A stretch of DNA of 64,000 bases, taken from NCBI RefSeq assembly GCF_947623445.1, contig NC_135248.1, positions 992,001-1,056,000 of the forward strand, given 5' to 3'. Source of the stretch: Clavelina lepadiformis. Lineage: Eukaryota; Chordata; Ascidiacea; Aplousobranchia; Clavelinidae. Position 1 is the stretch's first letter. Each line of letters opens with the position of its first letter. The position numbers were made by a program, and so were the translations under genes. Below the pieces are notes generated by a model. That model was given only the letters and a program-made list of their open reading frames with translations, ran no database searches and had not been told where the DNA came from. This document shows, in pieces, positions 3,105 to 61,745 of the stretch.

Positions 3105-4028
3105 TTACGATTTACTAACAATTAAAATAATTAGAAGAACAATTAAAATAACTGACATGGTGAATATGATTAACATTTTCCTGTTTTTCTTTTGATAGTT
3201 TTCGGCTTTTTTCAATTCTTCAAGACCGGTTTCAGTTTTTATAACGGCGTGTTCGACGTTATAGTCAATTCGATCTAAAACTGTTCCTTGTTCGATGACA
3301 ATCTGACCGAGATCTTGAAAGATTTCGGCAAGATCAGTGATACTTTGTACGACTGATCTAATCTCCTCTTCCCGTTGGTCGATGTTGACGGAGTTTTGGT
3401 TGATTATCGCGACCTGATCTTGGGTGAATCCCCGTTCAAACATTTCATCGCTGATATCATCTTGTTCGATCATTAATGCCGTGTTAGAACTAAAGTACTG
3501 ATGGGATCTTTCTTCTCGGGCTTTGAGTTTTTTCAAATAAGTTGATTGTCTTATTCGGAAATCAGTCGAAAGTTGTTGAAGGTGATTAGCAAACGATGAA
3601 ATCGCGTTTTTCAAGATTTCTCTCTCCTGAAAAGTTGCTTTTTCACTCGATCTTCCGATTGATTTTATACTGTTGTTGCATTTATGAAAAATTTGGGTAA
3701 TCTCCTGAGTGAATATTTCAATCCCGTGTTCCTCATCAAGCGTGTCATCCAGAGTTGGTCGAGTAAGATGTCTATCGTGAAGCGTGCTTAGTTCATCAAC
3801 TTTTTCCTTTATTCTATCAATATCATATTGAATATCTTGAAAACGATTGTTCCACTCGATGGAGAATGTCTTTCTGAAGGATATCGTCGTGTCTTGTTTT
3901 CTTTTACTGACCAACGCAACGGTGTCATCTTCCTCATAATAATCAACATTCCTACCGAGAAAGTTCTTATTCTGTATGGCATTATTTCTCATCAGAACAA
4001 ACGCTTCCATTAATGAACGAACAGCCAT
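3105..4028 (-). CDS. STX16: Syntaxin-16, Qa-SNARE of the trans-Golgi network (intronless)
   Basis: Tlg2/syntaxin-16 class t-SNARE for endosome-to-trans-Golgi fusion, tail-anchored. The start is MAVRSLMEAFVLMRNNAIQ at 4028, matching the conserved syntaxin-16 N-terminus (a binding site for VPS45); the 18 in-frame codons upstream are not family-like. Product 307 residues. Residues 55-165 look like the helical Habc region; the SNARE motif is about 212-274, with the zero-layer glutamine at Q247 in IEQGTVLDRIDYNVEHA; the transmembrane anchor is about 285-304, followed by only three residues. The whole protein is one exon, unlike every other gene here, which suggests an old retrocopy or complete intron loss. 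No poly(A) tract or target duplication is visible. The stop codon lies inside a GTAAGT donor-like sequence. Confidence 0.93.
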   Translation of the reverse strand: MAVRSLMEAFVLMRNNAIQNKNFLGRNVDYYEEDDTVALVSKRKQDTTISFRKTFSIEWNNRFQDIQYDIDRIKEKVDELSTLHDRHLTRPTLDDTLDEEHGIEIFTQEITQIFHKCNNSIKSIGRSSEKATFQEREILKNAISSFANHLQQLSTDFRIRQSTYLKKLKAREERSHQYFSSNTALMIEQDDISDEMFERGFTQDQVAIINQNSVNIDQREEEIRSVVQSITDLAEIFQDLGQIVIEQGTVLDRIDYNVEHAVIKTETGLEELKKAENYQKKNRKMLIIFTMSVILIVLLIILIVSKS

Positions 4029-6760
4029 CTTAAGCAATTGCAAAGTGACAATTGCAACAACGCTATGCGCAAATATCAACAATGGACAAATTTTCTAAAA
4101 AACAACAGAATGTAAAACAAGCTAATTAAATTTTACAGATTCTTAAGGAAAATGTGGAAATAATGAATTGTAATTTCCTTATCTTAACTCCTGTTTAATG
4201 CCATCGAATATGATTCTGTCAACCAACACTTCACTGTTAGAGAACAATTGAAATACGTCTGACTAGATCTTGCCAAAAAAGGCAATAAACGCAGTCCGGT
4301 GCACAGCACATTATTCCCATCTTAACCTAAACAGTATGCTGCAGAGGTTGACCTGTGGCTCTGTGAGAGGTTTCAATCACTCACACACAGTATGGGCTGC
4401 AAAATATGGCAGTTTTCGGCGTGATCACTGAGGTACAGAGGCAAAAATCTGGTGTGCGAAATACCAGCAGATGTAAACTCCTGTCCAGGACTTGTAGTCG
4501 CAGTAGGGAATGCAGGTTGTGTCAGGTTTTGCACAACAGCCTGATAAGCTCTGTACATTACCACTCTTAAAAAACAGTTGTAAAAACCATTTTTACAGAA
4601 ATATGTATATTTATACATCATCATATACGTACATTTGATTTCTATGAAACCATTGTTCCGTCAAATTTCAACCTATTAACCAATGGTTTTGTCTACTCGC
4701 TACTTGGAGGATTTTGTTGTGCAAAACTTTACAAGACCCGGAATGCAAAGCCTAGAAAAGCAAAAAGACAGCGTCTCCTTTTCTAATGCCTGCTCTTCTC
4801 CAACAAAAAAACAGGCATTGTCATATTATCTTGTCGCCTGCTGGTGTGTAATAACTAATAACTAATAACTGCGAATACTATTTTGCCAGAAAATCGCAGG
4901 TGTGCTTCTGCCATGCTTTATGCAGTTTGGGACACAATCATAATTATATTACTTGCCACAGCAGTTACTGGTCTGTCGATGGCTCCTAAATGACACAATA
5001 TCTGAGAATATTATGGTTTTGCAGACACTTGCACTACGACATGAGTAGGAGGCTAAATATAATAAATGCAGAAACAGGCTATACCATACCGTAAGCTATT
5101 ATAAGCCTAATCATATAGTAAACATATAATCTATGAAAAGCTGATAAATTATAATGGAAATGCTTTCGCCTTCTTAATGCAGTAATGACTGAATGAAATA
5201 TCCGGATAAGTCCTAGCCACCTTCCGCCTATAGGCTACCGGTACAAACCACTTCTGATCTAGTAGGCTATACAAGTGCACAACCACAGAATACCTTTGTA
5301 TACTAGGCCTAGACCCCAACTACTAAAAATTGTGAAGTCATCTGGTTGTGTATTAGACCCACCTCTTCTGAACCAAGACAAACTCAAGTAAGATTGCTCC
5401 AAGTCCCTACGTAGATTTTCAAATCTCGTTTCACCTTGCCATTAGTTTTAGTAATAAATTTACTTTATTCGAGCAAGCAAAAACCGCTCACCACTAAAGC
5501 AGTGAGGCACGGTTGGCATTTACAGCCATTTAGCCTTGCGCCCTCTTACTTCTGCTGCCCTGATGAAGGCCTGGGTGCTAATAAAAAAGAGTTTTGACGT
5601 AACAGAAAAGAAATTATGATGTAACGCGACCCCAACACTTGATTGTGTTCAGTGATGTGGAAGAGCAAAAGCCGAAAGACGCCATTCTAGCAGACAATTT
5701 AATGACGCGTCCTGTTGCAAGCGGTCCTAGCTCACCTTAGCTACAAAGGGAAACTGCGGCATGTGACAAAGACCAAAGATGACAAAAGGTGGCAGCAAGT
5801 TGAAGCCAAGTTTGCTATTCTGCAAGGAATGTGTTTGTCGGGCCAAATAGGGCTTGCATAAATCGATTCCGACAACGTTGAAATTATAATATTTTTTTGC
5901 GATTTCTACAAGCGACAGTTGAACGTTTTTTCATCCAAGCAGCGACAGACTTGAATATGTCGCTAACTAGCTGGCGTCAAAGCCATAAACTTAGGTGGCG
6001 ACTGACAGCTCCTGGCAACAAAAATGCTGCAAACATAAAGTCATTCGCAGTGTCAGATTTTAACCTTTCTTAGCATCATTTTGACAGGAATGCAGATTGA
6101 GATTAAGTGAAATTGTTGTGACACCGACAACACTATCAAATGAATGCTGAAGCTGGGTCGGCTAACAACTCATATTCGCTGTGCTTTAAGTTTTGCTTCA
6201 TAATTTAATTACTTCTTGTCGTTGATTACTTTTTGTTAAATCTTTACGTTGGTTGCATTTACACTGTATGTTGCTTGGAGTATTCAATTAAAAACTAAAT
6301 TTGTTAAATCGTTAAATTGTTCATTGAGTTTGTTAGACTTGAAAATGACAAGCAATTACACAACCATCCGGCTAGGAGTTTGCTGGCGTCCTAAGGCAAT
6401 CCGTGGTCAACTTTTTTAATAAATGGAAGTAGGCTACAGTGTAAACAATTTACAATTCCTTTCCTAAGCATGTAGCAAAGATCTTCTGAATTAAGACAGA
6501 ACGTCGGATAACGTTGTTGTTACAATCGTTTTAAAATATTTAAGACTATTCATCTGAAATTACCTTTAATACCCAGTCTACTTGCGCGAATTAAGTATTT
6601 CAGTGTGTACAGGCAAAACACAACGGAAAATTCAAATTTAAAACCTCGCACTCACGAAATTTTGCAGCAGCAGTAACCAGCAATCATTATTACACATCAT
6701 TCCATAAACCATCGGTTTGAAAACATCGATTTCTTCTGTGCTCGGGCTGCTGTACAGCAC
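4029..6760. other. Intergenic, no gene seen
   Basis: AT-rich DNA upstream of syntaxin-16. Open frames are short, lack plausible splice partners and resemble no family I know. A small ATAACTA tandem lies near 4850-4870 and there are scattered TAGGCTA/TAGGCCTA words. Confidence 0.5.
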
Positions 6761-9454: not shown

Positions 9455-11490
9455 ATGAAAGGTCTCAAAGAATTCTACGAAGAGTGGGCTCGTCCAATGA
9501 TCGCCGAGTATTTCGGTCAGCTGATCTTTACTTTTCTTCATTGCTCGGCCGGTTTCAACAACAAAGATGTTGGAAGCGCTCTGGCGCCAGCTATCAACGA
9601 CGGTCTAGTGGTCACCATCCTGGTCATCACCATTGGCCATATAAGGTGAATGGCTACGTCACTATCTTTGCCTGATAACTGTTTTTATGAATGGAAGTCA
9701 AAGGTTACTAAAGGACGTAATCCTACACCGCTCGGCTATGTTACGTAAGAGCTTCAGGACTCTGCTGTTAAACACTTTCATTCATGCAGACAAAATTACT
9801 GCCTGAAGTTTTTGTTCGAAAAATAAGTTATGTCAATATATGCGTGAGTCGCCTTCGGCATTGTAATTTGCTCATTGGTTGCTAAGCGTTTTTTTTTTCA
9901 CCGCACAGTGGCGCCCACGTCAACTTTGCAGTGACCACAGCAGTTGGACTCGGTGGCGGCATCAGGTGGCAGAAGGTACCACTCTACCTGGTCGCCCAAA
10001 TGCTGGGGTCTTTATCAGGGGCTTGATTGTCCTACGTGAGTTTGCCAATGCTGTATAGTTAACAGTCACCAATTGAATGTGCTTTCCCGATAGCAGAGGT
10101 TGGTTGAGAAAAAATACAAGTCTAGGTCACTTTGGGTATCCAGGCGATATGAATACTTTCAACTTCTTGTGTAATCAGGCAGGGAAAGTTGTTGAAGAAG
10201 TTTGGATCAGCAAATGTGATCAATATCGATTATCAACAAGTCTCCTTAACCTTATCATACGCATGTTTATAGAACTCGAGCAAATTGTTTTTTTGTGACT
10301 CAGGTTACAACGGGGGAATCGGCTGGGGCTTTTTCGTTGGGTGATGGGGTCACCGTGGGGCGTGGAGTTCTCACCGAACTCATTTTGACTTCTCTCCTCA
10401 CTTTAGCCGTGCTGCTCGCCGCCGTTGAACTTGACACCAACAATGCGGCGTTCGCAATTGGATTTGCAATTCTCATCGATATTTTGGCTGGGTTGGTCGG
10501 AACAAATTAATTTGAAGCTTCTGTTGTTGACTTTCAATGCGCTTGAACAGCTTTTAAAGAGCCGGTCAATCATATCGTATTGAACTCTTGCCCTAAAGTC
10601 GACTTCTTGTTTTTCTTTCATAAATGCAATTGTGACATCATTTTTGTAGGTTCCACGTCACAGGAGGTTGTATGAATCAGACGTTGAGCTTCGGACCAGC
10701 AGTGGTGGCGGGGCAGTGGATGAATTATTGGGTTTACTGGGTCGGTCCCTTGTTGGGGGCTTTTGTGTCCGGTTTGCTTTACAGGTGAGCTGCAAGGTTC
10801 AGCCTTGCGCGGAATGAAAGTTAGTTACGAGAATTTGTTATACACGTTTGGATAAATTTACCTCCTATTGCAAATAACTTGAATCAGAGCATGCGTCTAT
10901 GATACAACGGGGAACTTTTAAGTCAAAATTTCCGACAGCTCAAGCTGCATTACTGGGCCTCAATGAGATGTTTTTTAAAATACATTGAAACAAATTGAAC
11001 CTACAGTTTATAATCTCCTTAACTTAAAATTTCGGTTATCTTGAAGTGTTCTTGCCCCAAGGCATAAACTGCACTTGTTGTCTTGGAATTAGTTCAAGAT
11101 TACTCAACATCTCATAATGAAGCACACACAGCTGTGCTTATGTGAAAATGAAGAGGATTAAGTTGTAGTTGTTACTCCGGTGTAAACAGAACACTGTAAA
11201 GTGTAGCGTTGTAGTGATAGTGTAGTGATACCGTGCAAGTTCAGTGATTCGTTTTCGTTGATATTTCACGTCCACTTAACTAAGTATCAAGTCAAACTTT
11301 GTATAAATTGAAGCAATTTAATGGATTATATTATGACAGTTATGCGTAGCGTTACTTTGACTGAATAAAGTGTAGACTGAAATTTAGAAATTATGCGATT
11401 TTATTTTTTTTCAGACTTTTTCTCGGTGGAAACGCGAGATGGCTTTTCCGTGAGGTGGCGCCAAGTAACTCTACAAAGAGCAACGTCTGA
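9455..11490 (+). CDS. AQP8-like aquaporin with degenerate NPA motifs and an in-frame stop (possible pseudogene)
   Basis: Membrane channel of the aquaporin-8 class. Exons: 9455-9645, 9909-10035, 10304-10491, 10650-10784, 11415-11490; frames join exactly through 238 codons, close to AQP8 length. AQP8 hallmarks include GHISGAHVN, the DILAG before loop E, GGCMN, FGPAVV and W-x-YWVGPLLG near the last helix. Three oddities. The first NPA is NFA (9922-9930). The second is NQT (N-Q-T-L replacing N-P-A-R), so the selectivity-filter arginine is leucine. Codon 103 is TGA (10024-10026), in the position where relatives have Gly or another small residue in a helix. Splice sites and the frame after the TGA are intact. 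An AATAAA lies at 11764-11769. Either a recently dying gene, a nonfunctional allele, or a base error; as written it ends after 102 residues. Confidence 0.85.
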
Positions 11491-33741: not shown

Positions 33742-36700
33742 ATGTCACAGAATCAAGTTGAAACCAGCGTCTTTATGCAGCAGCAACAGGACAGACAGAC
33801 CCAGCCTACAACAGGTAAACACCAACTGTGTTTTTGTTCCAAGTTACCGGGTTCATGGTCGCCTAGCGCTGCGTTAAAACAAGATCTAACCGGTTGAAAA
33901 TCTCCAGGGTTATTTTTAGTCATATCTCGTTTCATGTATTTCACGGCTTCTCCCGTAATTTTTCTCTTTAATAAGACTGCCATGTATAAACAATACCTTG
34001 TTGATGCATTTTATTGTTTTTTGATCACGCGTCGACATTATTTTGGCATCAATTGCAGTTGACCAATTAAAATGCAGCGTATGTGGTTGTTAATAAAGTC
34101 ATAATTAACGAGATTTACCGAAAAATATTTAAGTTTTCGTTCAGATTTGTGACGTCACTCAAACACAAACATTTGCGTGAGAATGCGGAAATAGGTCCAA
34201 TTTGTGACGTGTGAAACGCGAAACCACATGTTTGTGTAACTGGTCAACTTTCGGGAAGTTCTTCTTGAGATGGAATATTCTACAGTAGTTGTCTGGCGTC
34301 TCTACGTTCAGAAGCGTTTCGAAATATCGGGCGGAAATTTCTATGTTTATAAACTTAGAATCGTTATTTTGGATTGTGTGTGTACTCGCACGAGTCGATG
34401 AAGCGTTTTCGTTTCGGTATCGGCATCTGCTTTGATCTCACCAGTCTTAATTTACATTTTCATGGCGTGTCTTTGTTTTGTTGTAACAACTGTATGAGTC
34501 CGATTTCGATTGTTTCCCAGAATATTATTTTTGTATTCTGACCCATGTACAATTTGCGCGCGTGCGTAACAAAGGTGCTTCTTTTATGACATAACAATAG
34601 CTAGCTCCAACGTGACATAACGAATTTGTTTGCTCGATTCGCAGTGGTCAGTAGCCGTCCACTGCTTTCGTCCACGAATAGCACGGCCAAGCGAACGACG
34701 TCACAAACCCTCCGCCGTTCGATTGTTGCGTCACGATGGAAGCTGGTCGGCGTCCTCGTCATAATTTTTCTCCTCATCGCGATCATCACCATCCTCACGC
34801 TCCTCCTGCTTCCCAGTGAGTATGACGTCATAAAGCTTGGAGTGTGACGCAACTTACTGTCATAATTTCGATTTTTAAACGATTATTATTTATCGACAGA
34901 AAGGAAATCGACAGCAGACGAAACATCATCAAACCAGCTAGCGCAATCAATAGGTTAGTGATGGTTGGCGAATTACGTCATCGTCAGATATTTTCTTAAG
35001 ACATCATAATCATCCAATTGTTTTAGCATGAGATTTTTCGCTCCTGGTTATCTATATTGAAGTTTATTCAACAAGATTTACTGTAACTACTTATTTTAAC
35101 TACAGTTTATTATTATAAACAATAAGTTTAATAACTACTCAAATCTGCTTCATTTTAGATAGCAGCTCCTCTTTGCACCTGCGCTGCCCTTCGAATGGAG
35201 ATATCGGGTCCGGGGATTCCCCAATCCAGTGGCGCGCTTACCCCTCAATCACAGCGACGTGGGACGAGTCGAGTTCGATTTGGGAGGAAATCCAACAATC
35301 GACATCTGGCGAGTTGCCAAAGTATCCCTTTGTTGTCATTTCTCCAACTTTCACAATGAGCAACGAATCATGCTCGGTCCAAGTCTCATTCGACTTCCAA
35401 TCAGAATCGAGCTTTCATGTTTTCCTTGTTACGTCATCGGAGGTGAGAGAGCTAAATGTGACGTCAGAATCATGTCATTACGCCTTCGTCGATGATGCAG
35501 TCCTCCTGTCCAACGTCTCTTCCTTTCAAATCCTCATCTTCTCCCCGTCTTCAATCGAGATACGTGGCTCTAATGCCTCTGTTACGTCACAAAAGTGCGC
35601 CGAGTTCGAAAACATCGCAACCGGAGAAATCTCCAGCGGGGTCGGGACCTTTGCTAGGGTCAAATCGGGGTCAAGAAACCTCTGTTCGTCGGAAATCTAC
35701 AACAAGACATTAATCGAATGCGATTGGCTGTACGTCACGTCGCTAGGCAGCGGGCACTTCACGCGGCAAGAAGAACACGATTGCGTGGCGCGCGGGGTTT
35801 CCTACTTCGAAGGAGACGGCCTCAGTTGGTTCCTGGCCCTAACCGGGACCCAACCGGACACCAGGGGCTACCTGGTATCTCCCGTGATGGAAAGCGGGAC
35901 CTCCCATCTCCTGCTCTCCCTCTGGTACATCGCTCAATGCAACGGAACTCATCTTCGGGTCTATCTTGTCCCCTCCTACCGTGACATAGGGGCGGTGACG
36001 TCGGAATTGACCCCAGTTTTGGTGATCAGTGACGTCAAACCAAGCCAGAAGTGGATATTCTTTCGAACCACGATTCCAGTGCCGGCAGAATATATGAACT
36101 TCCAGGTGAAACGAACTTTCATGATTTCTTCATTGATTATGTTGTATAGTTTTTACGTTTCATTGTTCACGTAATTAATTGGACTATGACATCACAAGCT
36201 TCACATAACGTAAGTGCAAAGGGAGCTTTTTCAAAATATTGCTTTAACGCAACAGGCGTATGGTTTTAATCACAATAAATCTACATTGCGTTACTACTTC
36301 ATAGAACTTATAATGATGCAAGGTTCCTATTCTCAAGATCCTATTTTCAGCGGGGGGGGGGGGGCATTCCCCCAACTTTTGAACACCAAGAGACGAAAAA
36401 AACTTGTCATTAAGGTTCACTTAAAATGAATTTTAGAAAAACCAGCCTGTGAAAAAAACTTAAAATAATCACTTTTTTAGCATCGGGACCGACTAAAATT
36501 TCTTGAAAATGTAATTCTGTACAGAGATTCTTTTTTCCAAAAGTACCACAGTACAATGATCCGGTACTATGGTGCCGCGGTACTGCCCATCTCAGACTAC
36601 CAAGGTAAATAAAACTGTCAATGTTCTCAAATAAAGCTGATAATGATTTGTTGTCATAATAAAAGGTTTATCAAGTTATTTTGCTGTACATATGTTAATT

Positions 36701-39638
36701 CCACCCGAGTGCGATTGAAAGAGAGCCATGAGGAACCATTGTCAGTAGCAACAAAGCACTTGTTACGGCTTGCGTGATAGCGTCAAATCACAGCTCAAGA
36801 TAACGTAGTAACCGCGCTCATGTTGTTTCATTCACAAATTCGCTTAAAAATCTGATGAAAACTTGCGTCTTGCCAGGATGATGGAAAATTAAACTCATCC
36901 ATATTTCATGACAAGTAATTGGATATTGTCTTGAGTTTTTCGTTAGTTACAGCGGAAATGAACGTTCATTTGTAGGTAAGACTCGACTTAGATTGATTTA
37001 ATGGAAACTGAATTTCGATTCCAATTCATCGGTTTTCTTTGGTCGTCCTGTATTTCAATTCTCCGATAGCAATTGCTTCAGTCCACTTAAATCAATTTGT
37101 ATCGAATTCATCGAAGACGTGCATTTCTTTGCCATTTTTATATTCCTCATAACGTTCATTGTTATGACATAAGCAAGCTGTTCGTCATTGCAGAGAATCA
37201 TCGGACAACAAAAGCCCAACTACAAAAAGAGACGGGAATTTTCGGTCTATTTTTGGCGTTGCATGCATGATGTGAAGATGTGATCTGTTTTGACCCGTTT
37301 TGAAGGGGTTTGTTTGTTCATAAGCGGGGTTACCAGTAACTTAGGTTGTTTCATTGTAGTGACGGATGCGGCGGAATATATTTCGTGGAACCTTGTTCAA
37401 TATAAGGCGCGATTTCTTTTGTGTACGGTCGTGGGTCGATTTACATTCTAGAATATAATGCCCGGGGAATTTTGCTTAGTGGATGTTTCAATCTCGTGTC
37501 TTGGTGACGCGCAGTTGATATTATGTGAGAGAAGTCGACAAGACCGTTCAAAATTTTATGGAAGGCTCACAATCCATGGACATCATATAAAACATTTCGC
37601 GTTAACACATTTGACCACAACGTGTTTTTTTTTTAAATAGAATCAAAAAGTGACTCTTGCCTGGAATTTAACGTTTTTTCTTTTTTCTAAAATACGTCGT
37701 AGGTTGTCATAGAAGGGGTTGTGACATCACAAGGGAGTTGCGAAAGACACAAATGTCACTTGGACCAGAACGCTTCTCCGAAAGATGCCGAAGTTCCTCT
37801 TCTGGCTCTGGATGAGTTAGCACTAGAAATGAAATACGATCAGTGCCAGCCAAGTAAGAGACAACGATTATTATCAACGATTCTAAGTCGTTCGAAATAG
37901 ACGTTTGTTGTGTGACGTAGGATGTTTCGCAGCTTTTTCTCACGTGACAATGTCTTACGTCACTTTCAGGTGACGTGAACAGAACTACAATCGATTGCGA
38001 GTTCCAGATGAACGCGAACACGTCGACCGTTTGCAAATGGCGGTCGTCGCTCCCTGAGTGGGCCAAACTTCTGGATTCTGATTATTTTAATGAATTCTAT
38101 TACTGGATGCCAGGCAACCAGGGTGACGACGAGGAGGTTTTCCACGGAGCCACGACAGACCATTTGAAAGGTGAAGATATTTTGAAGAGTTTATTCCCAA
38201 CATCTACTGCGTCATTTTTGAATTGCGGTTGTGAAAGTTATGAGTCTGTTGCACCGCATGCGCCAGCAGCGTTGGCGGCGTGGACATATTTAAGTTATTT
38301 TATTAAAGTAAAACATTGCTGTATTTAATTTAGGTGATTAACTAATTTACAGTTACAGTAATGAATCGGTTAGATATGGTAGTCATCGCATGACTATGTT
38401 TATGCTCCTATGGGTATTTATATAGGTATAGGTTGTTAAGTCGTTTCTATGGCTCTCTCTGTTGTCGTAACTCATCAATTGACCAATAATCTTCGCAGAC
38501 CGTGGTTTCATTCTTAACTTTGACGCTACGGGGCACACGGGGATTTCCCCTCACTTCAGGAGCCCCCTACTCGTGGCCGGGTCCCGGTGTTCGTGCGCGA
38601 TGTCGTTCCTCTACCTCCTCCGGGGAGAGTGGGTAAGCGCTTGGGGTTAACCCCTGGGGATTCCCCGCCGTAGTTGAAGATTATGTAACGATTATGGACC
38701 CAACTTTTCCCTATTTCCCCCAGGCCCCAAGACTCAACGTGAACTTAGTTCTGGGCGCCGACACAGACGATCAATTCAGACCGTTAAAGCCCCAATTTTC
38801 GGTGATCGGGCACCAGAGCGACGATTGGATGGTCGCGCGTTTGCCCCTTAATCTACAACCGGGAATCCCCTTCCAAGTTGAGATCAGATTGTCGGACATC
38901 GAGGAGAGCAGGGCTGACGTCAACATCGACGACATTTTCTTCCATGACTGCGGTAAGCTCATGCAGTTTAGTGCCCGGATTAGATTAGGATGCTTACAGA
39001 GTATAGAAGCCGGTTTATTGCGCATTTTAAATAGAATTAATCGCGCTTTTGGTCTGGGTTGGCACGTTTAATAAGTTTTTTTTATTGTTTGAGATCTAGG
39101 TAATTACATAGATATCTTATATTTAGGTACGTACCGTATTCCGAGCGTCTAATACAGTATAAATGAAATTAAACTGGGATCGCGCAGAGCTAATAGTAGT
39201 TGGCTGTGTTGTTTTCATTTATCGCGTTCGCCGCAACGGAGCTATTTATAACATTAAATATCTTGTTTCTGTCTCATCTCACTTAAGTCTGATTTCATGC
39301 CAAGTCGGAGTTTTCGAGACGAAGAACGTGACAATCGATGAACCGCTTATGCGCCTGTGATTAATTTTGTTTTGGCGCTGGAATTATGACGTCATTATTG
39401 TAATTTCGACGTCTGTCGCTTTGAGAAAGACGTGAAACTTAACACATACTCAAAATCGAAAGTTTTCGGTGAAGCGCTATGCTGATGTACTGTGACGTCA
39501 CCATGTGATTGTAAGCTGATAATTAGCATAACTGAATTGGGTTGTGGATGAGAGAATTCATAACCGCTGGTGTTCAATCTATTTAATTGTTAAAAATTGT
39601 CGGTTTTTTCAGATTTTCACCTCTACGATGAAGAGTGA
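33742..39638 (+). CDS. Type II membrane protein with three MAM-like ectodomains, copy 1
   Basis: Exons: 33742-33814, 34645-34815, 34900-34953, 35159-36105, 37703-37853, 37970-38170, 38499-38632, 38724-38952, 39613-39638; 661 residues, all junctions in frame. No signal peptide. Residues 1-56 are polar with a basic cluster before a membrane span at about 57-80 (VGVLVIIFLLIAIITILTLL), so N-in, C-out. The ectodomain has three cysteine-paired blocks like MAM adhesion domains: a divergent first block, a second from about residue 245 (RNLCSSEIYNKTLIECDW, then LLLSLWYIAQCNGTHLRVYL, ending LALDELALEMKYDQC) and a third from about 470 (TIDCEFQ, CKW, FRSPLL, INIDD-like NIDDIFFHDC). N-glycosylation sequons are frequent. 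The last exon (eight residues) is the least certain. Intron 4 (36106-37702) holds a 13-G tract and a DNA-element fragment. A tandem paralogue follows at 43287. Role unknown; adhesion or receptor function is inferred. Confidence 0.8.
36352..36364. repeat. Run of 13 G
   Basis: A homopolymer of 13 guanines followed by CATTCCCCC, inside intron 4 of the first MAM gene. It can pair with the adjacent C run or form a G-rich structure, and is a likely spot for length error. Confidence 0.9.
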
Positions 39639-42600
39639 CCTCTTACGTTCATTGTGACGTATCAATAGTTTCCATTGTGACGTTGATGTCGATAGCACTT
39701 GCACAGGCTCACATCTTCAATTTATTTTTCATTATATCGTTTTTTTCCCTGAGTTTTTGACGCTGCTCCAATATTACTACCAAGTTTTTGATTTAAATTC
39801 ATAATGACGTCAGACTTTCGACAAGGTTGTGTTACTTTCTATCAAAATGAAATTTTTATGCAGCGACCGCAATTGCTCGTTCATTATGACTCTGATGTCT
39901 TCTTTATGACGGGACACTTCGATTCATGCATTCACTCATGCGTAACGTGTACAGTGTACCTGCACGTATTTTGATGATCTTTATTAGTTGGGAGTATTTT
40001 AGTACATTTTGCATTGAAGATCATAATTTCTTGCACATCCTAAGGTGTATGTCGTTTTGCTATGACCGACTTCATAATATCCACATCAAGCAATCTGCAG
40101 TCTGTTATGATAACTTGAGTTCTGATCAAGTCACCTTTTTCGTTTCAGCTTAAGTCACTTTAAGCGTTGTCTTGAAGTCAATGTTACGTCATCATTCGAC
40201 AAAAATTGCGTCATTTGTTTTCATTTTTTTTGTTTTTTTGATTTGCACTTAACTCAGCAAGACGATGTCCTTCACCTATTTCCTTTCATTTTTTATTGAC
40301 TTGGTATAGTTTGACGTTTCGTTTTGTGACGTAACAATGGCCCCCGAATAATGATTTGTGTTTGTTTTTTCCATCACAATATCCACTGTTTTCACGCAAA
40401 GTTTTATGCTCGGTCCCAGATTAGATCGGCCTAAACAGTCTCGGCCATTGATCGATTTAGTTGTGTTGTACTTAAAGGTACTGTCTCACATGCTGTTGTA
40501 TAAGGTAATGTCTCAACAACACCCAGTCCTTTGTTGTTAAAACGAGCTGATGAATTCTTTTTGATAAACTTCACGTAACGTTTAGACATTTAGTCACTTC
40601 TAAATTTCTAAGCAAATGCGATAAAAAGCTTTAATCAACGGTAAGTTGTTTGTTTACGTTAAATTAAGTGCACAAATATTAATTCATTTAACGTTCAGAT
40701 TCGTGGAAAAATATTCAACGTCATTGCCTTTCAAATGCTATTTACCGAAATACACACATCGATGCCATTATGACGACATTATTGCCTCGTTTGTTTTATT
40801 TTATTACTCAATAAAGTTCAATTGGTTATTGGCCTATACAGAAGCAACCAAGTTTGGAAAATCACGTTTTCACGAATCACGAAGCTTCTACAACGATTCA
40901 TTTTCAAAAAACTTTTTTTGGGGAGTGATGTTAGCTTTGAAATTGAATCAACACGTACTGGCATAAGCTTGCCCCAAATCTACCATTTAATTGAATTCAA
41001 CTCCAAATTTCTCCCATAAATGTTTAATAAAGGTCTGGGCAGCCGTGATAAGACGTTAGCGCAGCTTCCAGCCTTGTTTGTTGATTTAATTTATTTCCAA
41101 CATAACAAATAAAAATAAAATTTCTTTAGCGCCCACTTACGGTCTTAATTATTTATGTTGTTTAACCACAAGCGACGTAGTGGAGCAAAAAACAGCAAGT
41201 GTTCAGTGCTTTAGTTTTGGTACATCCCAGCGGTAACAATTCATCAAACTGTAATTCAGATGGCTGGTTAAACAAATTTCACCAATAATATAATTTTATA
41301 AAATCTTCTCAACCTAAATACAGAAGTTGTTTAAGATTAACGCAGCAGGAGCAGCATATACGAAGCAGGCCATAAAATATGACTTCTACCCAAATCTTAT
41401 CGATAAACACCAGTTTCGAATTACAACAATATGACACGGCCGGAAATTCGAACACGCGATAAAGAAATGCAATTGTGACGTCATTATGGTTTTCTGCTTT
41501 CTTCTCTTTGCTTTGCGATATTAGAACACATTGATGCCTTTTCGTCGTCTGCATGACGTCTTGTTCGTTATGGCGTCTAAGCAAAGATTAAGGTGGAATG
41601 GATTTATAGTTACAATTTATACGTGTGGGCAGTTTTCCACAAATTTCGAGAAAAATATTGAAGCAAGAGTCACGATTAAACATTTACTGACTGGTATTCC
41701 CGCTTCGTCCTTGCCTGAGCATTGGTTGAAGTTTCTATTCAACAAAAGTCGGATTTAAACGCTGAAAAATAAATTGACAAACCAATCAATACCAGTCCAT
41801 AAGGGTTTGCTGCCACGGTGAAGTGACGAGTCAGCATAATCAATGACAATGGCAGTTACTGAATTTTGTGTGTTTTGACGGATAGCTTTCGTGACAAGAA
41901 TGGTCTATTAACAGAGAGAGTTGATATATTTGTTCTGCCTCGCCAATGCACGAAACAATCATCATATTAATGGAAGAGAAAGTCACGTGATCACCAGGCT
42001 AATTGGAAGCGAAAAGTATGCTTTGTTTCGTTTCGGTTTTAAGACAAACAATTCAGCTCTCTTGCAAGTTGTTCGATGAAAGCATTTTCTAAAGCTTCAG
42101 GTCGGTTTTCACTCAAATGACTTTGGTAACAGCAAGAATGCTGGACATTGATGCATAAACAAAATCAATTCCCTACGTGGGAGCATGTTATCGACCTGTG
42201 GTAGGCTGACGTTTTGGAAAATATTTGTTGTTTTGTGCAAGCTTCTCTAAAGGAAGCTTTATTTAGAAACATCTTAGACAGCAGAAAGGACGAAAAGCTG
42301 TCATCTCGGTTTATTTAAAACGGGCTATTGTCATTGTTTGTTACAAAACAAAAGACCTTTGTTACTTTTGCTAGTTAAAAACAACGTTAAATTTGCTGAA
42401 TTTGGGCCCTAAACCTGCTACAATTGCTTAAAGTCAAAAGGACAATTTATCTATAAACAATTCAAAGCTTAGAAGAAAGCGCCACAGGCCTAAAACTGCG
42501 ACGATGGTCGATGGTAAAACAGTAAAGTTCCTGTAGACAACATACGTGGTGATAATAAAATAAGACACCTTGTGATAAATCACGTAGACAAAGGCCAGGC

Positions 42601-43286
42601 GGTTAATCTTTCCACCAATTGCGAGGTTAACACGCGATAAGTCGATAGTTCGAGGCAATTTACGAAGATAAAAAGTGTATTTTGCTGCTAAACTACCCAT
42701 CGTCTTAAGTGTCTGAGACGTAAACAGTGGTTCTCAGAGCTTAACGTATTTTGTTGACGTAGCCCTTTAATTTTTTAACACAGTCCGCAGTGACACGCTG
42801 AATTATTAAATGTAGTTTGATGTTAATTAAAATTAGTCTCCAACCCTCACTTTATGCAACTGGACGTGTTGTGAACAGCCGGAAATGATATTTTAGAATC
42901 TGCTGTGTGGGACTTTTGTGACGCAATAATCATGGAGCTAAATATAGCGTAGGGAGAAAAAAATTGAAGGCAATTTGATCCAGAGATTTGAAATAAGATT
43001 CCCAATCTAGAATGCGTAATTAAGTGCAGGGCCTATCTACTGCACCCTCCATTCACCGGTTTTAAGCCCTTTCTAGGTACTATGGCCTTTTCTACCGCGG
43101 AAGTATTTCAACACTTCGATGAGGAAATTCAGCGCTGAACTAAACAAAGCCTCAGAAGAAGCGAAAGCAATTTTGTTACTTTCAAAAACTTTTCCTTTTG
43201 CCAGTTTATAGTGCCATAGTTGTTTTGTTGTTTGCTTAACTCTTTGAGGTGGTTTGATTTGAGTTGGGAGTAGAACAGATTCCAGA
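39639..43286. other. Spacer between the two MAM genes
   Basis: No gene recognised in about 3.6 kb. A lone hAT-like left end (CAGTGGTTCTCAGAGC) lies at 42727 without a visible partner end. Several TGACGTCA words (39388, 39491, 39804, 41476). AATAAA candidates for the upstream gene are distant (near 40810 and 41025). Confidence 0.45.
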
Positions 43287-46200
43287 ATGGACCAGCGAGA
43301 GCCGCAGAATGAACCCGCCTACATTCAAGGAAGTACAACGGTTAAAAAGAAACGTAAGTTTGTTTTTTTTGCAGCGATTGGATTCCGCGTAAATTACTTC
43401 TGATTTTGAAGCCTGCTAGTTGAAAGCGTTTGTGGGTTTAGTCAAAGTCTACTGAGCTCGTCTTCGTTTTGAGCATCTTTACATCTGTTATTTCCAACCA
43501 TACGACTAAGTGGTGTCATAAATTTAGTTACACGTTTGTGCTAATGCCATAACCGTTTCTATTATTACGTCACAGCCAAACATTTGTTTGCTTACTGTTG
43601 CCCATCTGCACCCACGTCATCGGACAGACAACGCTCTTCCTTTATTAGGTCAAAACGAGCAAGAAATTTTGGAGCGGTCCTGCTACTAGTCGCCCTGCTC
43701 ATCGCAGTAGTCGTGATTGTCGTGATTTTGATGACAAGGAGTGAGTATGACGACATAAAGGCAATAATATGACGTCAGGAAATTTTATAGCCACTTGAAA
43801 CGTTTGCTGTTGTCATAGGCGAAGCCGATGAAACTTCCGTAGCACCCAAGAAAAATCCTTTGCTTTGTCATATGGGAAAGAATCCTGTAGGTAAGTGACC
43901 TGGCCAGTGTAGTGGCGTGGCGTGTGTGTCTGACGACCTCGAAACGCATTTTTAACCATACCGCGATTTAGCTTTTCGAGTTTATTTGTTGGCCTGAAAC
44001 GAAAAACGACTTTAAGTTGTGGCTTCTCGAAGTTTTGAAGCCGAAGCGGACATGGTTTGCGGTGAAGCTATTTTAGGTGTGTGACGTCACAATAGTTGTG
44101 TGTGATTAATTGCTTCGTGGAAATTGCGACCAAACTGCAAGGCTGTCTTCGTGGTAACGTTACGTCGCTCTCATAAACATTAGCTACGTTTGCCTTTACC
44201 CAGCCGACGAGGCATCATAATGACCTCATGACGTCAGATATTTCAAATTTTTTTCTTGGTTCATAGACTCACGGAGTTCATCTCACGGAAGATGCGATAC
44301 GCTTCTTGAAGTCGTGAATTCGACGACGGTTTGCCAAGAAAGAGGAGACGACGCTTGGTACACGATGGCCGCCGGGACCTTTGGTGAGTTGTTAAATTCG
44401 TGTTAATTTTACTTTTTTTGTGTCCAGTCGTGACTGTTTTGGAAATTCCACTCGTGTTGGTCTAACCACGTTTTGGAGCAAAGAGGCTTCTTTCGTGTAA
44501 GTCGTGTCATGCGTTTTACGTCACGGCCGCATATGACGTAATACTAGATAGTTATAGTCGCGTTCTAGCAGAAAATTGTAAACGTGTTTGACGGAGGAAT
44601 CCTCGCTTGAAGCATGTACCGTCAAAAACCTTTCATAACGAAATGGCGTAATAACTGTAGTTGATAAAGGATGTGATGTAACAATGTGGAACAAAGCATG
44701 AGCCTGCACCCATCGCCTACGTTGGATATGAAAACGCGCGCGTTAATGACGTGCGGACCTATGATAGTTTGTGGTAACTCTCTTACCCTAGTACGAACTT
44801 ACAGGCGCTTTAACCCATGTAGGCCCCAGTGCAAGCAAATTCTTTTTTGTTTTGTGCAAATCATGGAAAATATCTTGATATAATCTCGTCTGTTTTATTC
44901 CTGTGACGTTTGTGTGTGCTGTTGGATGTTTATCACGGACGTTTCTTTCTTTTCTCAGCTCACTTGAAAATTCTTAAGACATTTTGGATCAGAATTTTAG
45001 TATCGATAACTCAGATTTTAGTTTCTTTTGCTTTGGCGGATTGTTATTAAAATTCTAAAGATTCTCTTGAGGTAGAGACGTCAAGTTTCTTTAAAACAAC
45101 ATTTGCTGAACAAGGGTTGACATTATGAAAATACCAAACATGAAACAAATTGCATCATCTTTAAAGTTTAAACAGAACCAACTGATTTTGTGCTTTCTGC
45201 TTTTAAAAACAACTTCAACCCAAAATAGAAAAAGCAAACTCAAAACGCAGCAGTTTCTTTAAACTTAGTTGGTGTTAGGTCTAACAGGATTTCTTAATAA
45301 TTAATGAGGTTTCATGTTTCCAAAATAAAGCCTTTAAGTTTCCTTATAAAGGGTTTCTTGAGCCACTTAATCTATCTAGTCTAGCCTAGTTATCGAAACA
45401 TACTGCATTATAACGCAAAAGCTCTTTGCAAACACGAAAGAGCTGCTGTAATGGCAACATGTGTTACAAATATGGAACCGGTGCTGCCATAATCGGCCCA
45501 AAAACTTTAAATTTTGAATACCTCTAATGATAATGAATGTTACACTGGAAACGACCGGATTGGTTGGAAAGAAATTTGTCCTGATGGATGCGAGACTCAT
45601 TTTTCTTTCTTGTTCATTCAGATCGAGAAGAAGTTGATCAACTTCTTCCTCCAAACCTCACAGACTTCAGCGCAATCGTCATGTCGCCCAACTATCTCCT
45701 CCCCAACGACAGCTGTCACCTTCAAGTGAACTTCAACTTCAGTTTCCAATCAAACTATGCCATCTACGTCACTTCTCCTGCGGAAGGCCACAGAAAAATC
45801 TCTGTTACGTCACAAACTTGTCACTACGGTGCTTTGGACGATGCCCAATTTCTCTCCAACAGCCAATCCCTTCGATTCATAATCGTTTCGAGTGGACCAA
45901 TCGGGATCGAGGGCGCTTCCGGTTCTGTGACATCACAGCCGTGTGAGAGCTTCGAAAGCGTGGGTTTTTCCCCTGTTGTGGGAAGTCACCCCGAGTTCGC
46001 AGTGGTCGGGTCAGGGTCGCGGAATCTCTGCTCGTTCGAGATTTTCAACAAGACAACGGTGGACTGTGACTGGTGGAGGGTGACCAGCCTGGGAAGTGCC
46101 GCCTTCACCCGCACTGACCATCACAGTTGCGTGGAATTTGGGGTTTCCCACGATGGGGCCGATAATAACCCTATTTGGTTTCTTACCCTTGACCCCATTT

Positions 46201-48986
46201 CTGACGACACAAAGGCTTTTCTCATTTCACCCATACTGGATACCAATGGGGCCACCCACTTATTGTTGTCCCTTTGGTACATCGCACAATGCAACGGGAC
46301 TCATCTCCGAGTATATCTTGTCCCCTCCTACCGCGATGTAGGTGCGGTGACGTCAGAATTGACCCCTGTCGAAGTGATTAGGGGACCAGAGAAGAGCTTT
46401 AGATGGGAATTCGCTTCCATAGATGTTGAAATACCTGCCGGTTACAATACAGTCCAGGTGGGGACAGACAGGCTAGTTCTTATAAGTGCTGTGATAGACA
46501 CATTTATAATAATAAGTACTGTGCTGCAGTCGAAACGTACGTTTATAGCTTACTAAGCGTTCATGCGTACACTTGCATCATAAATTATACTCTCACATCT
46601 TTCACGTGTGTAAACAACCTACCCACAAATTTAAAACCTTTCTTTTGTGAGAACGGTGGTGTAATTGTTTTTCTGCTTGCTAGGTTGTTATAGAAGGCGT
46701 TGTGTCAAGCACTGGCGATTGTGGAGGTCATCTTTGTCACCTCGGTCACCCCACCACGGTTACAGCGGTTGAAAGGCCTCTGCTAGCTTTGGACGATCTA
46801 GGAGTCGAAGTCCGTTACGACCAATGTACTTCGGGTAAGTAAAATTAACGAAACAACAGGGATATTGTGTGCGGGCAAATTGTTGCAATGATGTTTCAAC
46901 ATTCCGCGATAATTCGATGTAGCCCCCATACAGAGAGATGCTTTTTTTAAGTCAAGATGACGTTGCATGGCGTGATGTTTTTTTGTCTTTTTAAATACAG
47001 AAAACATTCGACAGAGTAACAGTAGGATTTTTTGGTGAATTTAACAACAGACAAAAATCAGCAACCATTAAACTTTTTCGGATTTTCTGTTTTTTTGGCG
47101 CGTTTGCCTCCTCGAGACATATTTTTGTGTTCGTTTTTTTAAAACTATTTTCCAATTTCAGACAAACCGTCCTCGATCGACTGCACTTTTGGAGCGCCGG
47201 GTAACTCGTTATGTGGATGGACGTCATCAAGATCGGCGTCTATTCCGGTTGAGATCATACAATTTCACCACTGGGTGGTTGAGAATAATGACAGAGGTAC
47301 CAGTGCGTGGTAACTGATTGACGTCATAGGCCGGAAATGACGCAAACTTACGCAGGTTTTTTTTTTAAAGGCGATGAAAGTTTCTTGAAATTTAATGTAA
47401 TGGCCTTACCGGAACACGACGCGTTTTTTCGAAGTCCGCTTGTTGTGGCGAGATCGACGTGTTCCTGCTTACTATCTTTCCGCTATAGACTCTTCGGCGC
47501 TGTGGTGAGCGGCCATTTTGTTTTCTTTGTTGTTTAAGTACCTCTGTTACGTAACAAGGCGATCGGCCAATCAGAAGCGTGAGCTGTTTTTTGCCCTTGT
47601 TTTCCTTAAACTTTAACCCACCTTTGATAGGGGTCGACCCGTCTTCAAACGAACCTGGTCCTGGGTGAACCTGGTACTGGTACTGGTCGCATCCTCAAAC
47701 CCCAGTGGTCAGTGTACGGCGAGATAAGCCAGGACTGGATTCCTGTCCAAGTACTTCTTAACCTGGATCCGAGTCAACCTTTCCAAGTCGAATTCAGGAT
47801 ACTGGGAGGGGGGAGCGGTTCAAACGCTTACGTCGACGATTTTGTTTTCCACCAGTGCGGTAAGTTAACATCATTGTGACGTCAATTATGCTGAAATAGT
47901 TTAAAATGTGCCGAGTTGCCAAATCGGTTCTGATTGGTGGTAAAGTTTACATCGGCGTATAAAGCGATATCATCTGCTCATTCAAAGATATTTCCGAGAA
48001 ATCGTCTTACGTAATAGAGTAAATAGACCATTGTTACGAGATAAATGCTTTACTATACGAAAAGGGAGCGACACTGATTATGATGTATACAAAGAGTCTC
48101 CTCGACATAAAAGTATCATCACATCACAATAAGTTTACCTGAAAGACCTCTCTCAAAAGTATTCATGACGTCATCGTGACGTTTTGTTTAGATATCAGCG
48201 AGGTCAGGAATCCCAGTTAAAATTTTGACGTCATAAAGGATTACATAATGTACAACCTTTCAAATGGGATGAGGCATCGGAACCAAGATGGCGGTAGAAG
48301 AAGTTCCAGGTTCGAAACCCTCACCAAGCAACTCGCTTGGACCCCTCGCTTGGCTTTTCAATCAAGTTAATATCCAGTGACGTTGATTATTGATGACGTC
48401 ATCAAAATAAGCAGAATACCTTATCAACTGTTATCGTTACAAGAACATTTTTAACCACTTTTCTTTCTATTTTATTCAAGTACTTTACTTTGAAATTTTT
48501 TCTTGTGTTTTGATGTTTTCTTGATTTTCGCTTTAACTTTTTCGCGTTTTTCAAGTTTTTGACGTTAGTATGACGATGTCATAAAAATGCGATGCATTTT
48601 TACGTCATAAATCAGTGCGAAAAACTCTTTTATTTGTTTCTCAGATTTTATTTTTGTCTTTTTTTCGATCTTTGCTATCCAGGGTTTCCAATTATTAATT
48701 TTCATTTCACTTCTCACTTCATTTTACAGTAATGAACTAAAATCAGTTTTGTTGAGAAATTAATTTGTCTCGAGTACGACGGCAGTTATGCAATTTCAAT
48801 TATTTTCAAAATGTTGCCTGTATTTTGCTGTTACAATCATTTTACTTGATCTTGCCATTATTTTTTATTTCAGAAAGAGGCATTAACTGCAATAAAAAAT
48901 ATGAAAATGAAACATTCTTATCTGAAATTTTCATCGTTTCAGATTACAGTATTTTGTCTTTCGTTTTCCCAAATCCAACTTCATGA
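43287..48986 (+). CDS. Type II membrane protein with three MAM-like ectodomains, copy 2
   Basis: Exons: 43287-43353, 43576-43740, 43819-43890, 44267-44383, 45622-46457, 46684-46834, 47162-47296, 47371-47504, 47631-47859, 48874-48986; 672 residues, all in frame. Cytoplasmic N-terminus of about 53 residues with RSKRARN just before a membrane span at 54-75, no signal peptide. The three MAM-like blocks correspond to copy 1; exons 6, 8 and 9 have the same lengths (151, 134, 229) and phases as copy 1 exons 5, 7 and 8. The second block holds SRNLCSFEIFNKTTVDCDWW and the near-identical LLLSLWYIAQCNGTHLRVYL; the third holds SIDCTFG, LCGWT, FFRSPLVV and AYVDDFVFHQC, a good MAM ending. Exon 10 gives a 37-residue tail unlike copy 1, and is supported by AATAAA 32 bases after the stop. 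Function unknown; cell-surface adhesion or recognition is inferred. Confidence 0.82.
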
Positions 48987-51302
48987 CAAAAATTCAATGC
49001 TTCGTCAAATCGGCTTCAATAAAAATCCCCTCATCAGATACCGGACCCCAGTAGTTTAACATATCGATCTTACATAGGATTTCTAACCCTAATTTTCTGC
49101 TTAATAATATAAGGTTTAGGATCAATATTGTAGACAAACATTCACGAAAACAAGCTTTTTAAAAATAGTGAAAAGATAATTGTTATAGTATGACGTCATG
49201 ACATTAAAGAATATAAATGCAATTAAACGAAACTAAATGAGAAAAAAGTTTTTTTTCTTTGTATAATTATTGGATGCGCTTCTTTGTTAATTTCCTTCGA
49301 ATCCCGTTGGAATGGAAACCCCCTTACTGTGAGTTTTTTGAAGAAAAGTTTTTAGGAATCTCTAGTACCGGTGTGTTTTATTTCAAACTTTATCAAAAAA
49401 ATAAAGAATTTCAAAGAATTTTCAAACAAAACGCACACAATTTATGGAAACTCTTTATATTTAATGCGCACTTCTATTGTGCAATTTACAACAAAAATCA
49501 TACAAAACTAATCAACTATCTGTTATAGCACACTTTTCAATGTGATGGTTTTTTACTCCCTAACAATGATATTTTAATTGAAATGAAACTTTTAGAAGCT
49601 TTCAAATGATCAGCGTTTACCTGAAAGTATTAATCCGCTAATTATGGACCACACACACGGACCAGGCAATGAAATTTTCCGCACATCCCACTCCATATTG
49701 CCTCACCGGTACCTTCCTATACTTTCCCACCGAGTTTATTGAAACTCCCCAAGCGACATTTTTGTCGCGATCAAACGTCGCCAACTGTTTCGTGGTGACG
49801 TCAAATTATCTGCATAATATATATACTACATTAGAGAGCGATGTATCGGTAAACAACTGGCTCAGTGACGTTCAGTGGAAGAACGTTATGCGAATACGTT
49901 GTGAGAAAATCGTTTCATTTACTGTGGTTAATGGACCATGACCAGATACCAAGGTTACGACTGAAGCAACGGTTGTTTATCAACCAGGCACGTTACCATT
50001 GGTTGTGTAAATAAGGGCGTTGAACGTAGAATAAAATTTCATTTAGACCTGATCTCAAATCTAAATTCACACAAAAATACCTTAATAGTTAAAAATAAAA
50101 TCTGGTTATGATTCTGGTTGGTCGTTGATTACTCTGGTTATTTTTATTTGTTCTTTGTTAAAATTAGTCACAAGCCCGAACCCGCAAAGGAACAACATCG
50201 GGCAGATTTCTATGGAATTGGCCAAACACAGCCTCACTAGTATTTCTTTGTGATGAAAAAATTTATAATATGATGAAAAATATATTTTTTAAAACAATTA
50301 AAAAATAAAAAATTATGATTAAACAACAACAAAGGAGTGATACAATAGACAGGTCGATTGTTATTTATTGTATAACAAAACGTGACTGTTAAACAAATGC
50401 ACAGAAAATGGCCATTGTCTTTCACAGACTGCGAGAACATGAAAAAACAAAACGAGCGAACCCGACTTCCGATCAAGAAACGGTTATTGTCTTTCGCAGA
50501 AAGCAGATCGAGCAGTTCGTTTGTTAAGATGGTTCATTGTACGGTCACCAGATAAAGTTGATTGAATTTCTTATTCATTGTAAAATTGAGGTCAAACTTA
50601 AACTACAGTAGAAGACAGATTGGATTTAGGTTTGACAATTGGTTCACCAAAAAAAACAGTTCATTAAAAATTATATTAAACTTTTTATTCAACAAATGCA
50701 ACTAAATACCAGTAAACAATAGGTTTGTAGGAATCGAATTTTTGGCTGAACCATAACGCGAAAATCTTTCTAAAACAAAAATGTGTGAATGTGAATGAGC
50801 GGCAGCGGCGGCAAAATTAAAGTTATCGCTCCATTAAATTTCTCCTCCACCATCGCTTCTATATTGACAGACAAATTTTACGCTCATTTATTTCCTTGGA
50901 ATTCAAAGAAACCTAACCTCGCGCGCCAACTACCGTCGTGAGATAAATGCGACGCAAACGGACACTGACGTTTTAATCAATGAAAACTAAGGGCGCCAAC
51001 TCGCGACTTGAACTTTTTAAAAGGATTATTAAAAACCACATTTCACCACTTGGTACCTCGGTTTACTGTTTGTGAAGCTGCCTTTGAAACCAGGCAGAAC
51101 TAATGCAAAAACCAAGCAATAATTCGGTCCAATAAAGTCTTATGCAACCCCACCGTATAACATGGATCCAGCATATTTCTCGATTTACATTTCAGTCGAA
51201 ACTGTTCAGGCGAAGTTGTTTGCGCATTCAAATTGAACGAAGTTTGTTCATTAAGCCCAGTTTCTCGCCAAAACAGCGAGGTGGCAATATATAAAAAAAA
51301 AT
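48987..51302. other. Intergenic, 3' of the MAM pair
   Basis: Very AT-rich. Frames at 49259-49528, 49669-49941 (plus) and 50237-50476 (minus) have biased composition and no motif. No RNA gene recognised. Confidence 0.45.
49018..49023 (+). terminator. Polyadenylation signal of MAM copy 2
   Basis: AATAAA, 32 bases after the TGA at 48984-48986, the expected spacing for a 3' end; it supports the choice of the last exon. Confidence 0.6.
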
Positions 51303-51717
51303 CTCAGTCAAAAAGTATGAAAAAACTACAACAAACACGGTAATTGACTTCTTGATTTTTAGCTTCTACACTGATTTTCTCACTTAAACTTTGTCATTTC
51401 ATTTCTCACACGTAACAAAGTTGTTTATTTCTTTGAACAAGTTAATAACAGTCTATTATAGTACGATGACAACTGAAACTTGTCTCCTGCATTTATTAAT
51501 ATTTCTCTTATTTTTATTTTTCAGGATCATAGGACACATAAAGAGATCATTTAAAGAAGAAAAAGATCACGAGTGCGTATATTTAAGTGGAAAATACAGA
51601 ATAAAAGTTGTCTGCATTGAAAGCTCTTGTCTTGAAATCTCATTTATCTTTGTCATGTTCTGTCAGGTTATAAACTCACCACACACATTACACAGACAGC
51701 AAGTAGCTCTGTATTGC
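51303..51717 (+). repeat. Direct repeat copy A, upstream of the glycine-rich gene
   Basis: About 415 bp that recurs at 61329-61745 in the same orientation with roughly 90% or better identity by eye. Both copies begin at CTCAGTCAA and end at GTAGCTCTGTATTGC. Copy B lies immediately 3' of the stop codon of the glycine-rich gene, so copy A may be the 3' flank of a lost tandem copy. Both contain TTTTTCAG before GATCATAGG and an open frame after it; between the copies most changes in that frame alter residues or create a stop, so coding is unlikely. Confidence 0.85.
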
Positions 51718-52111
51718 TCTGGCTTTCAGCGCCAGTAGTGGCAAAGATGTCGTTCAGGGCCACGCTTCGTTTTGAAAGAGATAGTTTGTGCAGGTTGGGT
51801 GTCGATAAGACTGCGGTCAAAACATTTGGAAAACGGATCAATGTTTTTAAAAATAAGGATATATATAAAAATAATAAATAATAAATAACGAATTTGTAGG
51901 AGGGCGAGTTCTTTTCTCTATTTCAATTTTTAATTTGTTTTTTTTTTTAACTTATTCTTCTTCTTCTTTCTTCTTCAGAAAACTTCTTCTTTCCAGGCTG
52001 TTTTGCTAGGAACCAATGCCGTAAGTGTCAGTAAGCTAGGTTAAAAGCAGACTAACTGTTTGAACAAGCATAACATTTCGTCTTGCAATTGCCATAATTT
52101 TCCTTTAAGAA

Positions 52112-61328: not shown

Positions 61329-61745
61329 CTCAGTCAAGAAGTAGTGAAAAACTAGAACAAACACGGTAATTGATTTCTTGTTTTTTTAGCTTCTTTCCTG
61401 ATTTTCTCACTTAAACTTTGTCATTTCATTTCTCTCACTTAATAAAATTGTACATCTTTGGTTAACAAGTTAATAACAGACCATTATAGTAGGATTAAAA
61501 CTGAAACTTGTCTCCTGCATTTATTGATATTTGTCTTATTTTTATTTTTCAGGATCATAGGACACATAAAGAGATCATTTACAGAAGAAAAAGATCACGA
61601 GTGCGTATATTTAAGCGGAAAATACAGAATAAAAGTTGTCTGCATTGAAAGCTCTTGTCTTGAAATCTCATTTATCTTTGTCATGTTCTGTCAGGTTATA
61701 AACTCACCACACACAGTACACAGATAGCAAGTAGCTCTGTATTGC
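61329..61745 (+). repeat. Direct repeat copy B, immediately 3' of the glycine-rich gene
   Basis: Partner of 51303-51717. It starts 16 bases after the stop codon and includes an AATAAA near 61438, so it probably forms the 3' UTR of the glycine-rich gene. Confidence 0.85.

Follow-up and report, generated by a model that had tools for sequence, protein, structure and literature searches.

Two adjoining genes on the plus strand of a 64,000-nucleotide stretch of the Clavelina lepadiformis genome (contig NC_135248.1, C9:992001-1056000; hereafter the window) raise the question of what a protein built from a short basic N-terminus, a single hydrophobic segment and a series of Cys-rich blocks would do in this ascidian. 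The original prediction had described the two genes, here termed A and B, as a tandem pair of type II membrane receptors with three MAM-like blocks in the ectodomain. Our analysis of the window, together with searches of the whole genome (209,060,895 bases in 95 contigs), leads us to propose, with moderate confidence, that A and B encode tandem type II MAM glycoproteins that would act through their ectodomains in adhesion, receptor clustering or scaffolding.

Gene A (33742-38952) was modelled with eight exons coding for 653 amino acids, and gene B (43287-47859) with nine exons coding for 635. GT-AG borders were found at all modelled introns, an in-frame stop lies 5' of the start ATG in each gene, and both genes look real. 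Their products share 44% amino-acid identity, and all seven introns of gene A have a counterpart in gene B in the same order and the same phase, which bears out the earlier description of two neighbouring plus-strand genes with matching exon phases. In the pairwise alignment, four of the seven lie within one codon of their counterparts and two fall in alignment gaps, while the first, located in the poorly conserved tail, is displaced by about five codons. Gene B alone has an additional phase-1 intron (44384-45621), which lies inside block 1. In a protein search of the genome, A and B were the only copies found: of the 12 matches up to E 10, eight lay in B and four in A. The block 2 query gave two matches, and silent sites between the two genes were saturated overall (pS 0.75). 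As predicted from the gene models, A and B are thus neighbouring paralogues, and as judged from their sequence divergence they are an old tandem pair.

The MAM content of the three blocks was graded against the curated cut-off of the Pfam family (PF00629, 26.4 bits). The spliced models matched MAM with E-values of 2.1e-16 (A) and 1.9e-16 (B), in two stretches each, and no other Pfam family reached its cut-off in either model. Block 3 exceeded the threshold in both proteins (44.1 bits in A and 41.7 bits in B) and is clearly a MAM domain. When its profile was run against the PDB, seven matches up to E 10 were obtained, led by two neuropilin-1 sequences (E 0.0061 and 0.014). Block 2 remained below the cut-off, with 19.0 bits in A (E 0.0013) and 25.9 bits in B (E 1e-05). 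In Smith-Waterman comparisons against 500 shuffles, none of the shuffles scored as well as the B2-B3 pair, three did for A2-B3 and 18 for B2-A3. These results suggested that block 2 is probably a MAM domain as well, near the threshold of detection.

Other observations weigh against a MAM ectodomain throughout. For block 1, no Pfam MAM match was obtained in either protein up to E 10, and in its ten comparisons with blocks 2 and 3 and with another Clavelina MAM domain, 21 to 454 of the 500 shuffles scored as well (at least 30 in eight comparisons, and 21 and 28 in the other two). The A2-A3 pair was likewise not above its shuffles, 355 of which were as good, and the profiles of blocks 2 and 1 retrieved no MAM protein from the PDB, the former giving two unrelated chance matches and the latter one. 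Even for block 3, meprin alpha (E 0.073) was outranked by unrelated gamma-tubulin complex proteins (E 0.031 and 0.069) and therefore counts for nothing by itself, so that only neuropilin stands out. A phmmer match to PTPRK (E 0.76) was at chance level and ranked behind an enzyme without relation to MAM proteins (E 0.065). In hhalign, a test without power for two-row profiles such as these, the probability was at most 1% for each of three block pairings, including that of blocks 2 and 3. Searching with the MAM hidden Markov model, which had been proposed as a check, hence upheld the idea of three MAM-like blocks for block 3 and, just below the cut-off, for block 2, whereas block 1 as a MAM domain is unproven. 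By the same token, MAM is the sole family above its cut-off in the modelled part, but a protein "built only of MAM-like repeats" is unproven for block 1, and the C-terminal exon missing from the models could add something else.

The membrane topology was called from hydropathy and charge alone. Each protein has one hydrophobic segment of 23 residues (Kyte-Doolittle value over 19 residues of 3.43 in A and 3.75 in B), with a basic N-terminus of 53-57 residues before it and about 560 residues after it in each model. The net charge of the 20 residues in front of the segment is +6 in A and +5 in B, compared with 0 for the 20 residues behind it in both, and the nearest preceding Met is residue 12 in A and residue 1 in B. 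With a single segment, this charge asymmetry, no nearby Met and the MAM domains behind the segment, both proteins fit a type II signal-anchor, and they are accordingly predicted to be single-pass proteins that lack an N-terminal signal peptide and follow the positive-inside rule around one internal anchor, as had been proposed. Since the models contain no other hydrophobic segment that could serve as a membrane anchor, the segment might instead belong to a signal peptide that has a long, basic n-region and is cleaved, and the proteins might be secreted. We regard this as very unlikely, as both the n-region and the hydrophobic run are far longer than is usual for cleaved signals, and no Met is placed near the segment to begin a shorter n-region.

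Three sequence motifs speak against the predicted orientation. PKRK, with three basic residues directly behind the hydrophobic run of A, weakens the charge asymmetry; one of the ten sequons of A lies within the predicted cytosolic tail, the other nine being behind the segment, as are all six in B; and a furin-like RSKR, which A does not have, is located within the predicted cytosolic tail of B. Two RGD triplets occur in the ectodomain of B and none in A, and a pattern search of both tails detected no immunoreceptor tyrosine-based inhibitory motif (ITIM), no YxxPhi and no acidic dileucine.

A strongly conserved part of the two proteins is a core of 37 residues within block 2, 36 of which (97%) are identical between A and B. 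The longest identical run in it is 27 residues, compared with at most 17 in 10,000 shuffles. At the silent level, the core differs much less from its surroundings: fourfold sites agree at 10 of 21 positions in the core and at 39 of 99 elsewhere, and codons are identical at 20 of 35 and 93 of 227 positions, respectively (p 0.059). Because the residues are nearly identical while silent divergence is much the same as elsewhere, the core has probably been held by purifying selection and was not copied recently. In the remainder of the two sequences, silent divergence is too high for selection to be measurable. Recent gene conversion of the core was also considered and is not favoured, silent agreement being only somewhat, and not clearly, higher there; an old event is possible.

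A core constrained in this manner would point to a surface conserved for binding or for structure, and it argues against a fast-evolving recognition family. It therefore bears on the suggestion, made in the original prediction, that the genes could be a lineage-specific recognition or adhesion system. The animal is colonial according to the excerpted text of one source (PMC10884593), and this, together with the predicted surface topology and the tandem arrangement, would suit a polymorphic pair for self/non-self recognition. Such a pair is nevertheless highly improbable in our judgement, since only two copies were found in the genome and the block 2 core is under strong constraint. An allorecognition role is possible, but the age of the two copies and the constraint on their core do not favour it. 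The adhesion or scaffolding part of that suggestion is plausible, whereas a young or diversifying recognition family is opposed by the copy number, the saturated silent sites and the near-invariant core.

In the type II MAM reading that we favour, the short basic tail of each protein, if expressed, would stay in the cytosol, the hydrophobic segment would serve as an uncleaved signal-anchor, and the Cys-rich ectodomain, presumably disulphide-bonded and glycosylated, would project from the cell with one unassigned block, followed by blocks 2 and 3 as its MAM domains. Homotypic or heterotypic protein contacts of this ectodomain would most likely bring about adhesion, receptor clustering or scaffolding. 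Such an action is proposed by analogy with MAM domains that engage their partners through context-specific surfaces; in the excerpted part of the source, MAM domains are described as jelly rolls with partner surfaces of this kind, the neuropilin-1 MAM being monomeric alone (PMC5104691). A further-reaching version, which we consider distinctly unlikely, is that A and B represent a tunicate-specific class of type II proteins with MAM domains only, in which block 2 carries a near-invariant binding surface common to the two diverged paralogues. In this colonial animal, the two proteins would then be partners of each other, or alternative ligands or receptors of a single conserved partner.

How far the ectodomain extends depends on the 3' ends of the genes. 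In both models, the final Cys of block 3 is followed directly by a phase-1 donor, where the model ends, and at least one exon is therefore probably missing from each; unspliced read-through beyond the last modelled exon is an alternative possibility. Nine candidate terminal exons behind B (47875-51000) and ten behind A (38970-43000) passed the pyrimidine filter. The exon after 47859 with which the original prediction had ended its span at 48986 is only one of those behind B and was not borne out, no homologue of it being found behind gene A. Against the favoured reading, further domains could follow on the C-terminal exon that was not placed. In that case, A and B might be larger mosaic type II proteins of the kind seen in enteropeptidase, the models covering only their membrane-proximal part and additional domains lying on downstream exons. 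The donor behind block 3 would suit such an arrangement, and no match to a C-terminal trypsin domain, as in a type II transmembrane serine protease, was found in the models, which end before the last exon or exons. The regions behind A and B, however, share nothing above chance (the best matches had E 0.023 by tblastn and, over 22 nt, E 0.007 by blastn), and beyond the frame of exon 8 no plus-strand open frame longer than 116 amino acids occurs in 38953-43286 or 47860-52000, a weak argument as exons can be short. On balance, we consider larger mosaic proteins unlikely, although by no means negligible as an explanation.

The other MAM loci of the genome also bear on the mosaic alternative. An exon-level search with the Pfam MAM profile (E up to 0.001, 150 of 203 candidates scored) gave at least 109 matches, none of those listed lying within the window, which indicated that such a search misses divergent members like A and B. 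Four of 14 other MAM loci (L043, L044, L045 and L051) were read by eye and look mosaic, with MAM near astacin-like, EGF-like, collagen/Kunitz-like, or fibronectin-III-like and lectin-like stretches, membership of the same gene being assumed. For L045 (1233-4232), Pfam confirmed collagen repeats (E 9.5e-18) near a MAM match (E 2.6e-14) in one open frame, and the similarity of this MAM domain to block 3 of gene A was above all 500 shuffles. As a separate observation, 71 of the 109 MAM exon matches listed are concentrated on one strand within about 73 kb (G000:C2:16133073-16206414), perhaps as one or a few giant genes with many MAM domains.

Table 1. Modelled exons and other features of genes A and B, with positions counted from the first nucleotide of the window
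Feature	Position	Strand	Content
Gene A exon 1	33742..33814	+	Start codon, predicted cytoplasmic N-terminus; 73 nt, phase 1 donor
Gene A exon 2	34645..34815	+	Basic juxtamembrane part, predicted signal-anchor; hydrophobic run 34743-34811 = residues 58-80
Gene A exon 3	34900..34953	+	Short stalk; ADETS common with gene B
Gene A exon 4	35159..36105	+	Block 1 (35179-35619), most of MAM-like block 2 (from 35677)
Gene A block 2 core	35908..36018	+	37 residues, 350-386; 36/37 identical to gene B
Gene A exon 5	37703..37853	+	Block 2 end; 51% identity to gene B exon, E 4.1e-10
Gene A exon 6	37970..38170	+	Block 3 (MAM) start; alone, no match to gene B in protein search
Gene A exon 7	38499..38632	+	Block 3 (MAM) middle; alone, weak gene B match, E 0.389
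Gene A exon 8	38724..38952	+	Block 3 (MAM) end; phase-1 donor after last Cys; gene B match E 1.5e-9
Gene B exon 1	43287..43353	+	Start codon, predicted cytoplasmic N-terminus; 67 nt, phase 1 donor
Gene B exon 2	43576..43740	+	Basic part, predicted signal-anchor; hydrophobic run 43668-43736 = residues 54-76
Gene B exon 3	43819..43890	+	Short stalk
Gene B exon 4	44267..44383	+	Block 1 start; separate exon in B only
Gene B exon 5	45622..46457	+	Remaining block 1, most of block 2 (MAM-like)
Gene B counterpart of the 37-residue core	46260..46370	+	From sequence comparison with gene A
Gene B exon 6	46684..46834	+	Block 2 end
Gene B exon 7	47162..47296	+	Block 3 (MAM) start
Gene B exon 8	47371..47504	+	Block 3 (MAM) middle
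Gene B exon 9	47631..47859	+	Block 3 (MAM) end; phase-1 donor after last Cys
Gene B candidate terminal exon	48874..48986	+	End point of the original prediction; 1 of 9 candidates passing the filter, 47875-51000

Elsewhere in the window, a syntaxin-like open frame lies on the minus strand at 3111-4094 (Pfam SNARE, E 1.6e-16), and an aquaporin-like exon was noted at 10250-10507 (Pfam MIP, E 0.00017), its 21.9 bits being below the cut-off of 25. A direct repeat, perhaps a mobile element, connects 51356-51717 with 61383-61745 at a distance of about 10.03 kb (282 nt at 96% and 69 nt at 90% identity), and neighbouring repeat pairs of 91-97% identity are located between 52120 and 53600. TGACGTCA is a palindrome present 30 times in the 64 kb; with all bases equally frequent, a random octamer would be expected about once. 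In the genome at large, GH6, the tunicate cellulose synthase, gave no match, but it gave none in 14 control genomes either and is therefore uninformative as a marker of the organism.

MAM domains usually occur as components of mosaic proteins or in type I proteins, and among the titles and abstract openings found in the full-text literature for MAM combined with type II, ascidian, Ciona, tunicate adhesion or Clavelina, none described a protein like A or B. Neuropilin and the receptor phosphatases mu and kappa are type I proteins; like A and B, they are single-pass membrane proteins with MAM folds, and the block 3 profile aligns over most of the length of the neuropilin-1 MAM domain at the E-value of 0.0061 given above. 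They differ in their additional domains, neuropilin carrying CUB and factor V/VIII-like domains and RPTPmu Ig and FNIII domains as far as the excerpted descriptions go, whereas A and B have a predicted type II anchor and MAM alone over its cut-off. Meprin and other astacin-MAM proteases have the MAM domain in common with A and B, the meprin alpha match itself being at chance level; unlike meprin, the models gave no Pfam match to the astacin catalytic domain or to a protease family. Enteropeptidase (TMPRSS15) is a type II signal-anchor protein with a MAM domain and in this respect resembles the predicted A and B, but its SEA, LDLa, CUB, SRCR and trypsin domains are unmatched in the models. MAMDC4, a type I protein, and MAMDC2, a secreted one, consist largely of repeated MAM domains and thus share the MAM repeats with A and B, which differ from both by the predicted type II anchor. 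In these terms, the two proteins put known parts together in an unusual way. A type II protein whose sole recognised domain is MAM would offer a small system for what MAM repeats do alone, in a colonial chordate relative of the vertebrates, with the conserved 37-residue core as a testable site.

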